Source: an uncultured Chloroflexales bacterium (GTDB lineage Bacteria > Chloroflexota > Chloroflexia > Chloroflexales > Chloroflexaceae). Taken from it: a stretch of DNA of 64,000 nt. The stretch's first letter is position 1. Each line of letters opens with the position of its first letter. The stretch spans positions 1 to 64,000 of the forward strand of contig CAKZSI010000049.1 in the NCBI GenBank assembly GCA_937918935.1, written 5' to 3'. Shown here piece by piece: positions 1,162 to 59,496 of the stretch. The notes under the pieces are model-generated. The model searched no databases. It saw only the letters and a program-made list of their open reading frames with translations, and was not told the origin of the DNA. A program made the position numbers and the translations under genes.

Positions 1162-3819
1162 ATGGGGAAAGTACGCAGCAGACGACTTGCGGCACACTCC
1201 CGCGCGCGGGGTCAGAGTCTGCCCTTGCTCAGCCTGATGATCGTTGTCATTGTTGGCATGGTCGGCCTGTCGGTTGATGTCGGCAACACCTTCTCCGAAG
1301 AGCGGCGCGCCGTCACCGCAGCCAACACCGCCGCCCTGGCGGGGATGAACACCTACATCGCCCGCTCCCAGGGAACCACCAATCGGGTGGTGTATACCTC
1401 GATCGTCAATGCGCTTAATGCCCACGGCGTGCAGGTGACCGCCCCCGGGGCCGAAGCGCAACCCGAAGAACTTACTCTTGAGGCGCGCTACCTCGACGCA
1501 CAGGGCCGCCCGATCGGCAATGGCTCCTCCCTGGTTAGCGACGATACCAACCCGGCGCCCAATAATGTCGCCTTCATCGAGGTGGGTCTCCGCGGTCGCA
1601 TTGATACCGCCTTCGCCCGTGTCGTCGGCCGCAACGACCTGGCGATCAATGCGATGGCCTATGCCGGCGCCTGCACCAGCAACTCGGGGTACTACCCCAT
1701 CACGGTGAACACCCGCATGATCGACGGGAATCGCTTCGTCCGCAGCAATGACCCCAACCTCAACTGGCGCGAGGTTCCCTACGACAGCCCTGACGTCTCG
1801 GGGCGCTTTACGGCCATGCGCGTGGTGGTGGGCGATGAGAGCGCCCGCACCTTCGGCTGGCTACGCTGGCGCAACGACGTCCCCGGGGCGCGTAGCGCCA
1901 TCACCCTGGCCCGCTCGTTGAGCGGCGAAGGCAATCTCGGTGAGGGCTTCGAGGAGGCGCCCTGGCCCAGTTCCCAGAATCGGCCCGAGGGCGTCTACCC
2001 ACCCGAACGCGGGGCCCTGACCCCCGGCGACTGGGTCTGGGGCAGCACCGCCTGGCCCGACTCTGGCGATGTGGTGGCGGCCCTTGACGAGCATATCCGT
2101 CTGGGGACGCGCATGATCCTGCCCATCCATCGCGATGCCTTCCGCGATGGCGATAACTCCCGCTTCCACATCGTGCGCTTCGGCCTCTTCGTGCTCCTCG
2201 ACCAGGGCCAGACCGGCAACAACCGCTGGCTTGATCTGCTCTTCCTCGGCGAGCCGCGCCCCCAGCAGCGCGCCTGTCTCTACGCCCCCACGGCGAATAA
2301 CGACGGCCAGGTGGGACTGGCCGGCTCCGTCTCGTTCCTGCCCGAATACCGCATTCAGCCCCGGCGGCGCCCGCCGGTTCAGTACACGGTCGTGCTCGAT
2401 GTCTCCGGTTCTATGAGCGCCAATTTTGCCGGCCAGTGCGATGTGTTCGACGCTGGCGCCCCCAACGCCAATCGGTATCGGAGCCAGAACAGTCAGGGCC
2501 ACGCCAACGGCGCGCAGCGTGGCTGGTGGCAGTGCGCCGAGGTGCCGGCCGATCCCAACTGGCCCGTCGCGCGCGCCGAGGTGCTGGGCACTGGTGAGGC
2601 CTACTGGTGGAGCAACGAACGCGATCGGCGCATCTATGTGGCGAAGAAGGCCCTCGAACGCCTGATCGAAGAGACCAACATGCCTGGTAATGCCGACTAT
2701 GACCCCGACCGTCCCTCTGACCAGATGGCCCTGGTCTGGTTCAATGACGGGGTGCCAGCGAACTTCGTCAGCAACTTCGACGGCGAGACTTTCTCCAACG
2801 ATCCACAGGAACTGATCAACGCCGTCAACCGGCAGGCCGCTACCCACCGCACCGGGAACACCTATCTCTCCCAGGGTGGCACCAATGGCGCCGCCGGCCT
2901 CTACCGCGCCTCTCTCGTGCTCGATCGCGCCCCGCGCACAGTGACCCATACCGATGGTCAGGTCTGGGAGTATAAACGGGCGGTGATCTTCATCACCGAT
3001 GGGGTGTCGAACATCTTATTCAACCCCAATGCCCGCGATCTGCGTTTTGGTCAGAGCGATCAGAACACCTATCCACGCGACCACGTCTGCAATACCTGGC
3101 TCGCTCCCGAGATGGCTAACTGCCAGACCACCGGCTTTGGCGGGCGCACCGTCGCCGCGGGCGGCGTGCCTGCCGGGCTGGATCGCCCCATCACTCAGGC
3201 TGTCAATGTCAGCGAACAGATGAAGTCGCGTCAGTACGAGATCTTCGTGGTCGCGCTCTCGAATATCCCCGACACCGGCCTGCGCGACGGCATCGCCTCG
3301 TTCCCCAGCTACTTCTTCTCGGCCCGGGAGTTGCAGCGCAATGCCGATGGCAGCACCAACGTTGACGCGATCATGGAGGCGATCAACAATATTGTGGAGA
3401 GCGGCGTCTGTGAACGGCGCGCCGATCCTCGCACCAGTTCCATCCCCGCCGGCGAGTTCCGCCCGGTCGCTGGTCTGGTCTACCCCAATGTGGGTGAGGT
3501 CATTCTGACCGACCAGAACACCGGCACGCAGTACCGCGCCCCCATCCGCGCCGACGCCTCCCGCGGCGGCACGCTGAGCTACCGCTTCGACCGCCTGCCT
3601 GCCGGTTCCTACCGCCTCGAGGCCTACCTCTTCTACCGCCATCCCCTCGATCCGCCCGATGCCGGCCCGCGGCGCTACAGCCTCATCGAACAGAACAATG
3701 AGACCCGCGCCGACATTGTGGTCAACGTGACGGTCGAAACCAACGTAGGCGGATTCTCCCGGGTGATCCGCCAGGATCTGCAACTGCGGCTCTCTGGCGA
3801 TGTGTGCGCTACCAGTTGA
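1162..3819 (+). CDS. TadG-like pilus protein with von Willebrand A domain (copy 1)
   Basis: An 885-residue protein. The start at 1162 is chosen because GGAGGA sits 6 nt upstream; longer frames have no ribosome site. The N-terminus carries the Tad/TadG signature (RGQSLPLLSLMIVVIVGMVGLSVDVG), which is a single membrane helix, then an ~60-residue helical segment rich in Ala. A VWA domain follows with the MIDAS motif DVSGSMS at residues 413-419, a GGTNGAAG loop and FITDGV. The C-terminus (GEVILTDQNTGTQYRAP onward) looks like a beta-sandwich domain. It is probably exported and surface-exposed, acting as a minor pilin or tip/adhesin component by analogy with VWA pilins. It is paralogous along its whole length to the gene at 5474-8098. 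Confidence 0.8.
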   Translation: MGKVRSRRLAAHSRARGQSLPLLSLMIVVIVGMVGLSVDVGNTFSEERRAVTAANTAALAGMNTYIARSQGTTNRVVYTSIVNALNAHGVQVTAPGAEAQPEELTLEARYLDAQGRPIGNGSSLVSDDTNPAPNNVAFIEVGLRGRIDTAFARVVGRNDLAINAMAYAGACTSNSGYYPITVNTRMIDGNRFVRSNDPNLNWREVPYDSPDVSGRFTAMRVVVGDESARTFGWLRWRNDVPGARSAITLARSLSGEGNLGEGFEEAPWPSSQNRPEGVYPPERGALTPGDWVWGSTAWPDSGDVVAALDEHIRLGTRMILPIHRDAFRDGDNSRFHIVRFGLFVLLDQGQTGNNRWLDLLFLGEPRPQQRACLYAPTANNDGQVGLAGSVSFLPEYRIQPRRRPPVQYTVVLDVSGSMSANFAGQCDVFDAGAPNANRYRSQNSQGHANGAQRGWWQCAEVPADPNWPVARAEVLGTGEAYWWSNERDRRIYVAKKALERLIEETNMPGNADYDPDRPSDQMALVWFNDGVPANFVSNFDGETFSNDPQELINAVNRQAATHRTGNTYLSQGGTNGAAGLYRASLVLDRAPRTVTHTDGQVWEYKRAVIFITDGVSNILFNPNARDLRFGQSDQNTYPRDHVCNTWLAPEMANCQTTGFGGRTVAAGGVPAGLDRPITQAVNVSEQMKSRQYEIFVVALSNIPDTGLRDGIASFPSYFFSARELQRNADGSTNVDAIMEAINNIVESGVCERRADPRTSSIPAGEFRPVAGLVYPNVGEVILTDQNTGTQYRAPIRADASRGGTLSYRFDRLPAGSYRLEAYLFYRHPLDPPDAGPRRYSLIEQNNETRADIVVNVTVETNVGGFSRVIRQDLQLRLSGDVCATS

Positions 3820-3841
3820 TCCGCCAGGCGATGAGGAGCAG

Positions 3842-3872
3842 GGGCGCAGGGAAACCGGGTTTCCCTGCGCCC
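3842..3872. repeat. Family-B palindrome (15-bp arms, 1-nt centre)
   Basis: Perfect inverted repeat whose core is GGGAAACC-G-GGTTTCCC, extended by GGGCGCA/TGCGCCC. It lies 23 bp after the stop of the first VWA gene. There is no T-run, so termination is possible but not shown. Confidence 0.8.
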
Positions 3873-3901
3873 TTCGTCTATCCCCCACCATGCGCGCTAC
3901 T

Positions 3902-3947
3902 CGGTACCTTTTGACTATTGAGCCTCGAAATGCGCCTGACCTATAAT
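3902..3947 (+). promoter_or_regulatory. Second copy of the Tad-locus promoter box
   Basis: Carries the same 21-bp sequence as 666-686, then TTGAGC (3918-3923), an 18-bp spacer and TATAAT (3942-3947). The TadE-like gene starts 42 bp downstream of the -10, giving a short leader. Confidence 0.6.
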
Positions 3948-3988
3948 CAGCGTACGATCGCGTATCGCGAGAGGAGCGTGAGCAGCGT

Positions 3989-4579
3989 ATGGATCGCCAC
4001 AACTCTGGTCAATCAATCGTCGAAATGGCGCTGATCCTGCCATTCATGCTCATGGTGCTCTTTGGCATCATGGAGTTCGGGTACATCATCTGGGCCTATT
4101 CAACCGTCTCCCAGGCCGCCCGCAACGGGGCCGAAGCCGCCGCCCAGGTGCCGCCCTATGAGTCCTGGCTCGCCTATCGCGATAATCCACCCAATGACTC
4201 GGATTACCCCGGCTTCCGCGGCGATGCCTGTGTCAATACCATCCTGGCGGCAGTGGAAAGTGATACGACCCTCTTCAGAGGTGATATCAACCAGGGTCGC
4301 AATGTGGTGGATTTCGTGACCATCCGCTACCCTGACGGCGGCAATACCCGCAACCTCCGCGACCGCGGGCCAATCGAGGTGGAGATCAGCTACCCGGTCA
4401 CCGGGCTGACCCCCCTCTTCCAGTTGCTGCGCATCGGCGGGAGTGAGGGTACGATCACCCTGCGCGTCATCCAGCGGCGCTCGCTCGAGAATCTTGGCCT
4501 TGACCCCACCCGGCCCGCCGGCGTGGCCTGCGCCCGCAATATGGCTGAATGGCGTGAGTTGAACCGGGTAAGCCAGTAG
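3989..4579 (+). CDS. TadE-like pseudopilin
   Basis: A 196-residue TadE-family protein. The N-terminus NSGQSIVEMALILPFMLMVLFGIMEFG matches the TadE signature: a short basic/polar leader, Gly, Glu five residues later, then a hydrophobic helix. Next comes AARNGAEAAAQ, typical of the family. The rest is a soluble domain exposed outside the membrane. TadE/TadF proteins are minor pseudopilins of the Tad secretion system. The gene has its own promoter (3902-3947). The next gene follows 11 bp after the stop, so the two are probably co-transcribed and partner proteins. Confidence 0.85.
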   Translation: MDRHNSGQSIVEMALILPFMLMVLFGIMEFGYIIWAYSTVSQAARNGAEAAAQVPPYESWLAYRDNPPNDSDYPGFRGDACVNTILAAVESDTTLFRGDINQGRNVVDFVTIRYPDGGNTRNLRDRGPIEVEISYPVTGLTPLFQLLRIGGSEGTITLRVIQRRSLENLGLDPTRPAGVACARNMAEWRELNRVSQ

Positions 4580-4590
4580 GAGTATTGACC

Positions 4591-5217
4591 ATGTTGCGCC
4601 GACTTCGTCCACATTACCGGCAGCCTCGCGCCAGGGGTCAGGCGCTGGTGGAACTGGCGCTCGCCAGCACCCTGCTCTTCTTCCTGCTGGCCGCCGCCGT
4701 CGATCTGGGGCTGATCTTCTTTACCCTCCAGGGCCTGCGCACTGCCGCCCAGGAGGGCGCCACCTTCGGCAGTTATCCGGTGCAGGTGATGGAGAATGGC
4801 CAGTTGCAGCGGGTCGATCTTAACTATGCCGAGATCGTGCGGCGCGTGCGCGGCGCCGGCGGCCCGCAGTCCACCGGCTTCGCCAATCTGCGCGACCTCG
4901 ATAACAACGGCGTGTGGGACGAGTATGAGACCGGCCGCCCCGTCCATAGCGACTGGTCGAACCCCAACGCCTATATCCGCATCGAGTTGCTGAGAGGGCC
5001 GAATCCAAACGCTCTGAGCGCCACCCCACCCTGCCGCACCGATGTGCGTGGCGAGGGTATGCAGGCCGGCGGGCGCGACTGCTGGGTCAGGGTCACGGTG
5101 AGCACCGATTACCAGTTTATCTTTCCTCTTGCGCCCGCCTTTGGCAACAGTGTACGCCTGCGAGCCATGTCCGTGATGCCCATTCGGAGTTCGTATGCCA
5201 ATAGCCCTGGCCAGTGA
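4591..5217 (+). CDS. TadE/TadF-like pseudopilin
   Basis: A 208-residue protein with the TadE-like N-terminus RARGQALVELALASTLLFFLLAAAVDLG and then LRTAAQEGATFGSYP. The ATG at 4591 is preferred over an upstream TTG at 4585 because AGTAGGAG ends 8 nt before it. A single N-terminal helix anchors a soluble domain of about 170 residues with two Cys in the C-terminal half. It is the probable partner of the TadE-like protein just upstream. It could equally be called TadF; the families are hard to separate by eye. Confidence 0.8.
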   Translation: MLRRLRPHYRQPRARGQALVELALASTLLFFLLAAAVDLGLIFFTLQGLRTAAQEGATFGSYPVQVMENGQLQRVDLNYAEIVRRVRGAGGPQSTGFANLRDLDNNGVWDEYETGRPVHSDWSNPNAYIRIELLRGPNPNALSATPPCRTDVRGEGMQAGGRDCWVRVTVSTDYQFIFPLAPAFGNSVRLRAMSVMPIRSSYANSPGQ

Positions 5218-56891: not shown

Positions 56892-59030
56892 CTACGGGGC
56901 GTAGACAAAGATCACCAGCGTTGAGAGGAGCAAAGCGCCCATACACAGCGGCCAGAAGATCAATTTGGGCAGGAAGTTGTGCTGGTAACTTACAAAGATC
57001 ATCCCCGGCACATGCACGATCAGGAAGGCGATCATCGTGACCAGGAGGATCACGATGTACAGCAGCAGGTAGAGGTGCTCAAGGTAGGTAATGCCGACCG
57101 CCGCGACACTGTCGCGCAGGGTGGTATGCACCAGAGCGATCACGAAGAACAGGGCCGCAGTGTAGCTCAGCGCGGAAACCAGATCCTGGGTGTCGGTCAA
57201 CTGACGATCGCTCAGCAGAAAGGCAAACACCAGCCCCAGGGTCACCATCCCCGGCAACACGTAGGCGATGAACGGGCCAACCACATTACGCCGGGCCACC
57301 AGCGAAAACTCCAACACGGGCGGCGCGGCACGCTCTGCGCGGGTCGTCAGTCCCAGGGTGGCATTGCCATCTGACGGGATCAGGCTGAAGTAGCTGCGTT
57401 CAAAATGCCAGTTGGTAATCTGCACCCCCTCGTCCACACCGGGCAGGGCGCCGGGTCGAAGCAGAACGTAGCTCTCCAGATCCGGGGTCAGGACGACGTT
57501 CCGCTCCACCTCGGCAGGCAGCAACCGTAGGTGGATCGCACGTTCGTCAAAGGGGAACTTGACCGGGTTCCAACTCTGCTGCAAGGTCGTGTTGACACGC
57601 CACACAATTACTTCGCCATCGCCGCGCGGCGCGCGGGCCACTTCCTCAACCGGCATCAATTCGCCGAGCTCCTGGCTGAGGTTAAAGCCGCGACTGACCT
57701 CTTCGGGAATGCTGTTGCTGTAGAACTGCCACACGAACCCGCCCACCGTCACCGAAGTCGCATCAGGAAACTGCACCGCTGTCAACTGTACGCCGGTCGG
57801 AACGACGAAGAGCTGATCCTCGGGATCAAGCTCGCGGCGGTAGCGTTCGAGTACCCGTTCGACAGCCGCCTGGCTGGTGAGCGCGCTGGCGGCCTCGCGG
57901 ATCAGGCGCGAGTCGAGTTGCCAGATCAGCCCGATCAAGGCCAGACACGTGGCGGTGAAAGCGAGGGTAATGAACCAGGGCCCCGCGACGGGGCCGAGGC
58001 GCGTGGCGCTGAAGAGGGCCAGGCCCAGGACCAGCGCGCCCGCGGCGGCAAGGGCGATCCCGGTCACGTCACGCAGGATCTGGCCGGCGGGGAGCTGAAA
58101 CTCAGCCTCGTCTATCACCAATGCCAGGGCGCTGCCACTGGTCGGCAGCGGAGCGAAGAACAATCGCGTATCTCGCCCGGTCAACGAATCGCGATGGTCC
58201 AGTTCCAGCGTTTCGCCGGCCAGGGAGCGGCGCGCGGCGTCCTGCACCTCGGGGTCGAAGCCACTATCCTCATCGAACATGGTACTCCGCGCCACCCGTG
58301 TGCGATCGGGGTAGTCGAGAAACACGCCGTTCCGACCGATCACGAACCCGTAGCCCTGCGCGCCCAGATCGAGCCGGGCGAGCAGATTGCGCACCTCCTG
58401 CAGCGACAGGTCGGAGGTTACCACGCCAGCGGGCTCGTTCCGGCCGTCAGGATGGGCGAAGGGACGGGCATATTCAATCAGCACCTTGCCGGCCCCGGTG
58501 GCCAGAAACGGGTCGCTCCAGTTCGCTCCGCTGCGGATGGTGTCGTAGTACCAGGCCGTTTTGGGAGCGTCGGGGTCATCAGAGGGGGGTTGGGTGTAAT
58601 CGTAGGTGGCGCCGATCAACTCTTCGATGCGCCCCTCGGGGGTACGGTACACATAGACCTGAAAGAGGCGCTGCGCCGGGTCGTAGACGAACGGCGCAAA
58701 GGTCACGGCCAGGCCATTCACGTTGGGCGCGCCTTCGAGATCGGCGCGCAGTCGCTGAGGGATCTGGTCGAAAGGCAGGGCCCCGGAGGTCAGATCCTCG
58801 GCCAGAGCGTCGCCCAGGTCCTGCGCGGTAGCAAAGGCGGCATCAATGCTTGCAGCGGATTCGCTCAGGCTCTGGCGCGCGAGGGCGGTTGTATCCATGG
58901 CTGCCGCTGTGCGCCGCTGGAGGTGCAGCACGGTCAACAGGGCGGTGAGCAGGAGCAAGGCTACGAACGATCCGGCGAGCGCCCGGCGCCCTGTCACGCG
59001 GCTGGTCGAACTGGCAGTTGTGGTTGTCAC
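56892..59030 (-). CDS. Cache-domain sensor fused to a pentameric ligand-gated ion channel
   Basis: A 712-residue protein from the GTG at 59030. Order: TM1 (~17-36); an extracytoplasmic Cache sensor (~50-310; TAWYYDTIRSG, GYGFVIGRNGVFLDYPD); TM2 (~322-341); TM3 (~351-371); a beta-rich domain (~405-580); then four helices (~584-606, 613-638, 647-674, 686-710). The second half matches prokaryotic Cys-loop-type channels. It has the invariant loop FPFD (492-495), ERNVVLTPDLES, EFSLVARR leading into M1 with a Pro, a pore-like M2, and M3/M4 with M4 near the C-terminus. It should bind a ligand outside and gate ion flow. The GTG start is chosen because it lies just before TM1; its ribosome site is weak. 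The fusion order, with a two-helix hairpin between sensor and channel, is unusual. Confidence 0.78.
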   Translation of the reverse strand: MTTTTASSTSRVTGRRALAGSFVALLLLTALLTVLHLQRRTAAAMDTTALARQSLSESAASIDAAFATAQDLGDALAEDLTSGALPFDQIPQRLRADLEGAPNVNGLAVTFAPFVYDPAQRLFQVYVYRTPEGRIEELIGATYDYTQPPSDDPDAPKTAWYYDTIRSGANWSDPFLATGAGKVLIEYARPFAHPDGRNEPAGVVTSDLSLQEVRNLLARLDLGAQGYGFVIGRNGVFLDYPDRTRVARSTMFDEDSGFDPEVQDAARRSLAGETLELDHRDSLTGRDTRLFFAPLPTSGSALALVIDEAEFQLPAGQILRDVTGIALAAAGALVLGLALFSATRLGPVAGPWFITLAFTATCLALIGLIWQLDSRLIREAASALTSQAAVERVLERYRRELDPEDQLFVVPTGVQLTAVQFPDATSVTVGGFVWQFYSNSIPEEVSRGFNLSQELGELMPVEEVARAPRGDGEVIVWRVNTTLQQSWNPVKFPFDERAIHLRLLPAEVERNVVLTPDLESYVLLRPGALPGVDEGVQITNWHFERSYFSLIPSDGNATLGLTTRAERAAPPVLEFSLVARRNVVGPFIAYVLPGMVTLGLVFAFLLSDRQLTDTQDLVSALSYTAALFFVIALVHTTLRDSVAAVGITYLEHLYLLLYIVILLVTMIAFLIVHVPGMIFVSYQHNFLPKLIFWPLCMGALLLSTLVIFVYAP

Positions 59031-59496
59031 TGGGAACTCTTCACTATGGGGCAAAAGGGTTTTCCTGGGAGGGCCGCGCTTTGCCGAACCCTCCGCCCGG
59101 CAGGGCCGAGGGTGCATCCGCCGCCCGCAGCGGAGTCCGGGGCTTGTCTTGAAGCCGTTGCCTCAGCCCTGCTCCGCCCGGACGGGCGGCCATACTGAGA
59201 CGGGTCTCGCTACGCCGCGCCCGGCGCCACCTCAGAGGTGACCGCGCCGAACTCGACGTCATTCACCTGGATGGTTATAGCGTGCGGCCCGGGATAGACC
59301 GGACGCACCCCCACCGGAGCGAGCGAGTGGCGTTTCTTATCGCGCCGGGCGCCAGCCACTCCGAGCGGAGCTTGAAGACCTTCGGCGGTATTTGAAGGGC
59401 TGCGGTCCACGCGCCATAGGGCGCTCCTTGCCATCTCGCGCAGACTCAAAAGGGCCGAGCGGGGTGCCGCTGCGGCCCTGAAGGTATCATCACCGA
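59031..59496. other. Intergenic stretch between the channel gene and acpP
   Basis: A degenerate family-A copy lies near 59068-59097. A 79-codon minus-strand frame (59210-59449) exists but shows no domain and no ribosome site. Nothing else was recognised. Confidence 0.4.

Follow-up and report, generated by a model that had tools for sequence, protein, structure and literature searches.

The gene described here encodes a protein in which a sensor of the kinase and chemoreceptor type is wired straight to a neurotransmitter-receptor-type pore. By predicted fold and by homology, a pentameric ligand-gated channel (pLGIC) makes up the C-terminal 310 residues, and computation showed seven rather than four membrane helices in each subunit, with a Cache sensor domain and the ligand-binding domain (LBD) sharing the outer side of the membrane. 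The protein is a bacterial relative of nicotinic and GABA receptors to which a chemical-sensing Cache domain, with membrane helices of its own, has been added. On the combined sequence and model evidence it is probably the subunit of a homopentameric pLGIC that acts as a Cache-modulated ionotropic chemosensor.

The following features were located in the window, that is, the whole stretch of 64,000 nucleotides that was analysed.

56892..59030, minus strand: the Cache-pLGIC gene (ORF list and translation; same-genus orthologues)
58917..58979, minus strand: TM1, about residues 18-38, continuing into the long first Cache helix (hydropathy of relatives, AlphaFold)
58086..58910, minus strand: dCache_1 sensor domain, about residues 41-315, extracytoplasmic (Pfam, PDB profile match to 3lib, VIA-align)
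57999..58088, minus strand: TM2, residues 315-344, first hairpin helix (model, hydropathy in relatives)
57906..57986, minus strand: TM3, residues 349-375, second hairpin helix (model, start point of three shorter relatives)
57288..57830, minus strand: pLGIC-type ligand-binding beta sandwich, residues 401-581 (superposition on GLIC 9-315, Z about 20)
57546..57557, minus strand: Pro-loop FPFD, residues 492-495 (two invariant residues)
56901..57281, minus strand: M1-M4 pore domain, residues 584-710 (model, PDB superposition)
57105..57191, minus strand: M2 pore helix, residues 614-642 (HMMER alignments to GLIC, conservation counts)

The sensor and channel halves

An earlier note on this DNA had described one frame of 712 residues. 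The ORF list and translation bore this out, with a GTG start at 59030 and a stop at 56892-56894, and supplied the strand, minus, which that note had not given. An in-frame ATG at 59117 is a possible alternative start, giving 741 residues; the additional residues were not conserved in the same-genus copies L003 and L008. Same-genus copies were 70-84% identical over essentially their full length, which indicated that the gene is real, and identity was 52% to the Chloroploca copy and 37% to copies from farther Chloroflexales. One of the same-genus copies (G002:C12:146828-148953, L003) had a frame change near the start of M3, so either the gene is broken there or the assembly is at fault. Relatives were collected by a single peptide-pattern scan of GTDB contigs, which is not a census; it yielded 42 loci, and most of the full-length ones kept the order TM-Cache-TM-TM-LBD-4TM. 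The layout proposed in the earlier note (TM1, Cache, two helices, a beta-rich domain and four helices) agreed with the Pfam matches, the AlphaFold model and the hydropathy of the relatives.

Only the Cache part of the 712-residue protein was seen by Pfam and NCBIfam. The Cache/PDC profile search that had been proposed for this part gave matches over residues 53-306 to PF22673 (MCP-like_PDC_1; 1e-10, above cut-off) and to PF02743 (dCache_1; 5e-10, slightly below its cut-off). When a sensor profile of 37 relatives was compared with the PDB, the best matches were the histidine-kinase sensors 3lib (6e-26) and 3li8 (1.5e-25), both from Methanosarcina mazei, and the uracil chemoreceptor 9hvj (8e-24); in those proteins the output is a kinase or chemotaxis domain, whereas here it is a channel. 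The AlphaFold model superposed on 3lib with a Z of 27.6. As in other dCache_1 domains, a double PDC fold was placed between two TM helices and began with a long N-terminal helix (8-82).

The sensor of 3lib binds methylamines, including dimethylamine (PMC10104139). In the sensor studied here the dCache amine and amino-acid motifs were only partly retained. The Arg that stands two residues before Trp-Tyr in dCache_1AA domains (R126 of PctA, which holds the ligand carboxylate) was absent and its position was occupied by Thr158; Thr was found there in 20 of the 32 rows with a residue at this position, and Arg in only 2. The canonical amino-acid Cache motif was rejected, since its defining Arg is missing from this protein and from nearly all relatives. 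Of the dCache_1AM amine pocket, W160-Y161 and D207 (corresponding to PctD D235) were present, D207 being found in 12 of 32 rows and so not conserved across the family; paired aromatics, this Asp and an R103/D133 insertion together define the amine type. Our guess is that an amine-like small solute is the first candidate to consider as the Cache ligand.

In the channel half, the sequence marks listed in the earlier note were all located: FPFD at 492-495, Arg-Arg at 580-581 just before M1, a proline in M1 (P593) and four helices, modelled at 584-606, 614-642, 649-673 and 686-710. P493, D495 and R581, the basic residue that closes the LBD, were invariant in all 37 aligned rows. The M1 proline was present in about 31 of the 37; a few rows from cyanobacteria and archaea had Arg or Leu in its place.

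A channel-profile search of residues 405-712, also suggested in that note, had a divided outcome. Single-sequence scans found no channel model in Pfam or NCBIfam, even at E=10, but profiles of the relatives matched GLIC in the PDB, at 3e-5 from the Pro-loop to M3 with six sequences and at 3e-4, reaching through M4, with 38 sequences. Read strictly, the silence of the two libraries is an outcome that the earlier note had named as refuting its reading; because profile and structure comparison both match pLGICs, it was taken as a false negative. Among Methanosarcina-related genomes, no match above cut-off was found to PF02931 in three or to PF02932 in four other Methanosarcina, which indicates that these models are blind to the family in those genomes. 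No phage relatives of the channel half were found.

The anticipated ten-strand beta sandwich plus four-helix bundle was present in the AlphaFold model of the full protein (pLDDT 85, pTM 0.77). The C-terminal 367 residues were also modelled separately, with similar confidence (pLDDT 84.5, pTM 0.78). Both models superposed on GLIC end to end (GLIC residues 9-317). In Foldseek/VIA-align comparisons, both matched GLIC, ELIC, nAChR, GlyR and GluCl with a Z of about 20 over 277-285 residues at an rmsd of about 3 Å, and for the C-terminal model the 50 matches listed were exclusively pLGICs, GLIC chimeras included. GLIC, the proton-gated channel of Gloeobacter violaceus, has in common with this protein the LBD and M1-M4 fold, the Pro-loop, the pre-M1 Arg and a Ser at 6' of M2, but it has neither an N-terminal sensor nor TM1-TM3 and is only about 14% identical.

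Membrane topology and the pore helix

The computed chain order places the dCache domain outside, held by TM1 and TM2, after which TM3 returns the chain outward to the LBD and the M1-M4 pore domain follows. The two-helix hairpin reported in the earlier note was recovered as model helices 315-344 and 349-375, and hydropathy gave two hydrophobic stretches at this site in nearly all relatives. In 30 relatives the N-terminus was positively charged (mean net +3.6), the TM2-TM3 loop had a net charge of +1.2 and the flanks of the Cache domain and the LBD were negative, a pattern that fits a cytoplasmic N-terminus and a cytoplasmic turn.

In three relatives (L061, L052 and L062) TM3 is the N-terminal helix. 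The Cache-less members, from Acaryochloris, Colwellia and an Enterobacterales MAG, formed one fully supported clade, in which TM1-Cache-TM2 is missing and the protein starts at TM3. Loss of the sensor is suggested by this grouping in an unrooted sequence tree.

Prime numbering of M2 was taken from the gapless profile alignment to GLIC and assigned S622 to 6', A625 to 9', F629 to 13', H635 to 19' and R639 to 23'. Across the 37 rows, 13' was Phe in 36, 9' was Ala, Ser or Gly in 36, and 19' (His or Gln) and 23' (Arg) were without exception. GLIC, in contrast, has Ile at 9' and Ala at 13', and the best PDB sequence matches were A237F mutants of GLIC, in which the 13' residue is likewise Phe. On this pattern, the gate would lie at Phe 13' and not, as is usual, at 9'. 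The M1-M2 loop was acidic in every Chloroflexota row, which was read as cation selectivity; in this lineage the channel is probably cation-selective.

Proposed mechanism and alternatives

In the mechanism that we favour, a small extracytoplasmic solute would bind the Cache domain, and the resulting shift would travel via the continuous TM1/Cache helix and via TM2 to TM3, which is predicted to pack beside the M-helix bundle and to lead directly into the LBD. The signal passing through TM1-TM3 would set how easily the M2 gate opens, a path suggested by the connectivity of the chain. The LBD would provide a second, possibly separate, site for a ligand or ion, and the cell would use the channel as an ionotropic chemosensor that alters membrane potential or ion content. 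A homopentamer was inferred from the one gene of the family that was found in the source genome. The co-conservation of Cache domain, hairpin and channel, in the same layout, in about 30 relatives from at least five phyla was counted for this mechanism. In kinases and chemoreceptors, dCache domains generally work as dimers, which mismatches fivefold symmetry and is a point against this mechanism, and the existence of a channel core without a sensor in the Cache-less relatives also counts against it.

Since those relatives keep TM3-LBD-M1-M4 intact, they would also fit a Cache domain that plays no part in gating and instead captures or concentrates solute, or aids assembly, with opening left entirely to the LBD. 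Tasneem et al., in the accessible part of their paper (PMC549065), suggested that Cache has a preliminary role in concentration or sensing, and the N-terminal domains of DeCLIC, another pLGIC with an additional N-terminal region, are highly mobile. However, TM1, Cache and TM2 are helices continuous with the rest of the protein and the TM2-TM3 loop is steady at about 13 residues across phyla, features better suited to tight coupling than to a tether, and a Cache domain with no role in gating was judged rather unlikely.

A receptor with the shape of a pLGIC that conducts barely or not at all, and signals by its conformation or through a partner protein, is considered improbable. The large Phe at 13', where GLIC has Ala, the A237F matches and an M2 otherwise poor in polar pore positions would be consistent with this reading; on the other side, conservation extends over M2 and the loops that join it to M1 and M3, the 9' residues are small, and gating may occur at a different level of the pore. 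ELIC, whose gate is a Phe at 16', does conduct. The silence of Pfam and NCBIfam would be expected of a different membrane-protein family, for example a DUF4436-like one, that merely resembles a pLGIC; an unrelated protein of this kind was ruled out, to a negligible residual probability, by the full-length superposition on pLGICs and the significant GLIC profile match.

It is quite possible, although we stop short of calling it likely, that the Cache-modulated channel favoured here represents a large and almost unstudied pLGIC branch with seven helices per subunit (35 per pentamer), a sensor that reaches the pore via the hairpin and a gate at Phe 13'. If so, the hairpin would have arisen by the joining of a complete TM-Cache-TM input before a signal-anchored channel, or would have been cleanly removed in the Cache-less clade. 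The direct link between such a sensor and the pore makes it possible to test how modular allostery works and which ligands the pLGIC superfamily originally had.

Earlier reports, distribution and gene neighbourhoods

The suggestion in the earlier note that the architecture might be undescribed was not supported. Tasneem et al. (2004; PMC549065), in the part of the paper that is accessible, described Methanosarcina, Cytophaga and Microbulbifer proteins in which MCP-N and Cache domains are fused to the ART-LGIC core, placed the extra domains between the signal peptide and the LBD, and proposed that such fusions serve as chemotactic receptors. Those proteins likewise carry a Cache sensor N-terminal to an LBD and a four-helix channel in one chain; the protein studied here is a Chloroflexota member, and the Methanosarcina form analysed here plainly belongs to the same family. 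The accessible text of that paper does not mention a hairpin, two extra membrane helices or a 7-TM topology, nor the breadth of the family or its pore pattern (Phe 13', small 9', His/Gln 19'). What may be new is therefore narrower than the architecture, namely the hairpin with seven membrane helices.

In the literature searched, no function, structure or later study of any Cache-pLGIC was found. Later papers describe the N-terminal domains of such channels as little known, with DeCLIC from Desulfofustis as the sole characterised case. Its periplasmic N-terminal region consists of two beta-rich calcium-binding lobes and, unlike the protein studied here, no Cache domain or extra TM helices have been reported for it (PMC9897478, PMC12664993). 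Under ion channels, the accessible part of a 2016 Cache-domain census lists VWA_N and VGCC_alpha2 alone, which agrees with the failure of Pfam to see the channel half.

Cache-pLGICs are far more widespread than the 2004 report could show. Loci with the full-length layout came from Chloroflexota, cyanobacteria, Methanosarcinales, Saprospiraceae, Bacteroidales, Vibrionaceae, Clostridiaceae and Dependentiae, and 7 of 31 Methanosarcina genomes carried the gene (696-722 residues, identical layout). Standard profile libraries overlook the channel half, so annotations probably list the products of these genes as hypothetical, or as Cache proteins and nothing more, and the family is probably under-counted.

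Several loci departed from the single-gene, single-sensor form. In the cyanobacterium Argonema antarcticum, two Cache-pLGIC genes lay side by side and in the same orientation (L031:274-2406 and 2897-5080), so its channels may be heteromeric. In a euryarchaeal relative (L042:1232-5059), 1276 residues long, two tandem Cache regions preceded the hairpin and channel. In another Chloroflexota genome, a protein of 865 residues (L091:3017-5614) combined a TPR-like cytoplasmic start, one TM helix and a type I periplasmic-binding domain (Peripla_BP_6, 1e-33), placed before a pLGIC core (Neur_chan_memb, 3e-9).

In the window, the neighbours of the Cache-pLGIC gene were acpP and a 4HBT thioesterase gene; as the earlier note had stated, they do not explain its ligand, and deduction of the ligand from these uninformative neighbours was rejected. 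A link to a chemotaxis operon was also rejected, since the one MCP gene and the CheW-domain genes were clustered on contig C8 and the channel gene lies on C49. Within the Chloroflexales (L001-L010), the neighbours varied by genus (a HEAT-repeat gene, a YhgA-like transposase and others), so that no partner gene could be inferred. In Vibrio coralliilyticus the channel gene lay directly after an SBP_bac_3 solute-binding protein gene and a permease-like ORF, and in Vibrio mexicanus the gene directly after the channel gene encodes an SBP_bac_3 protein with a PF03458 (glycine transporter/TRIC-like) domain attached (L056:394-2621 and L049:5107-6285). These Vibrio neighbours resemble the PBP-II neighbourhoods that Tasneem et al. 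(PMC549065) reported.
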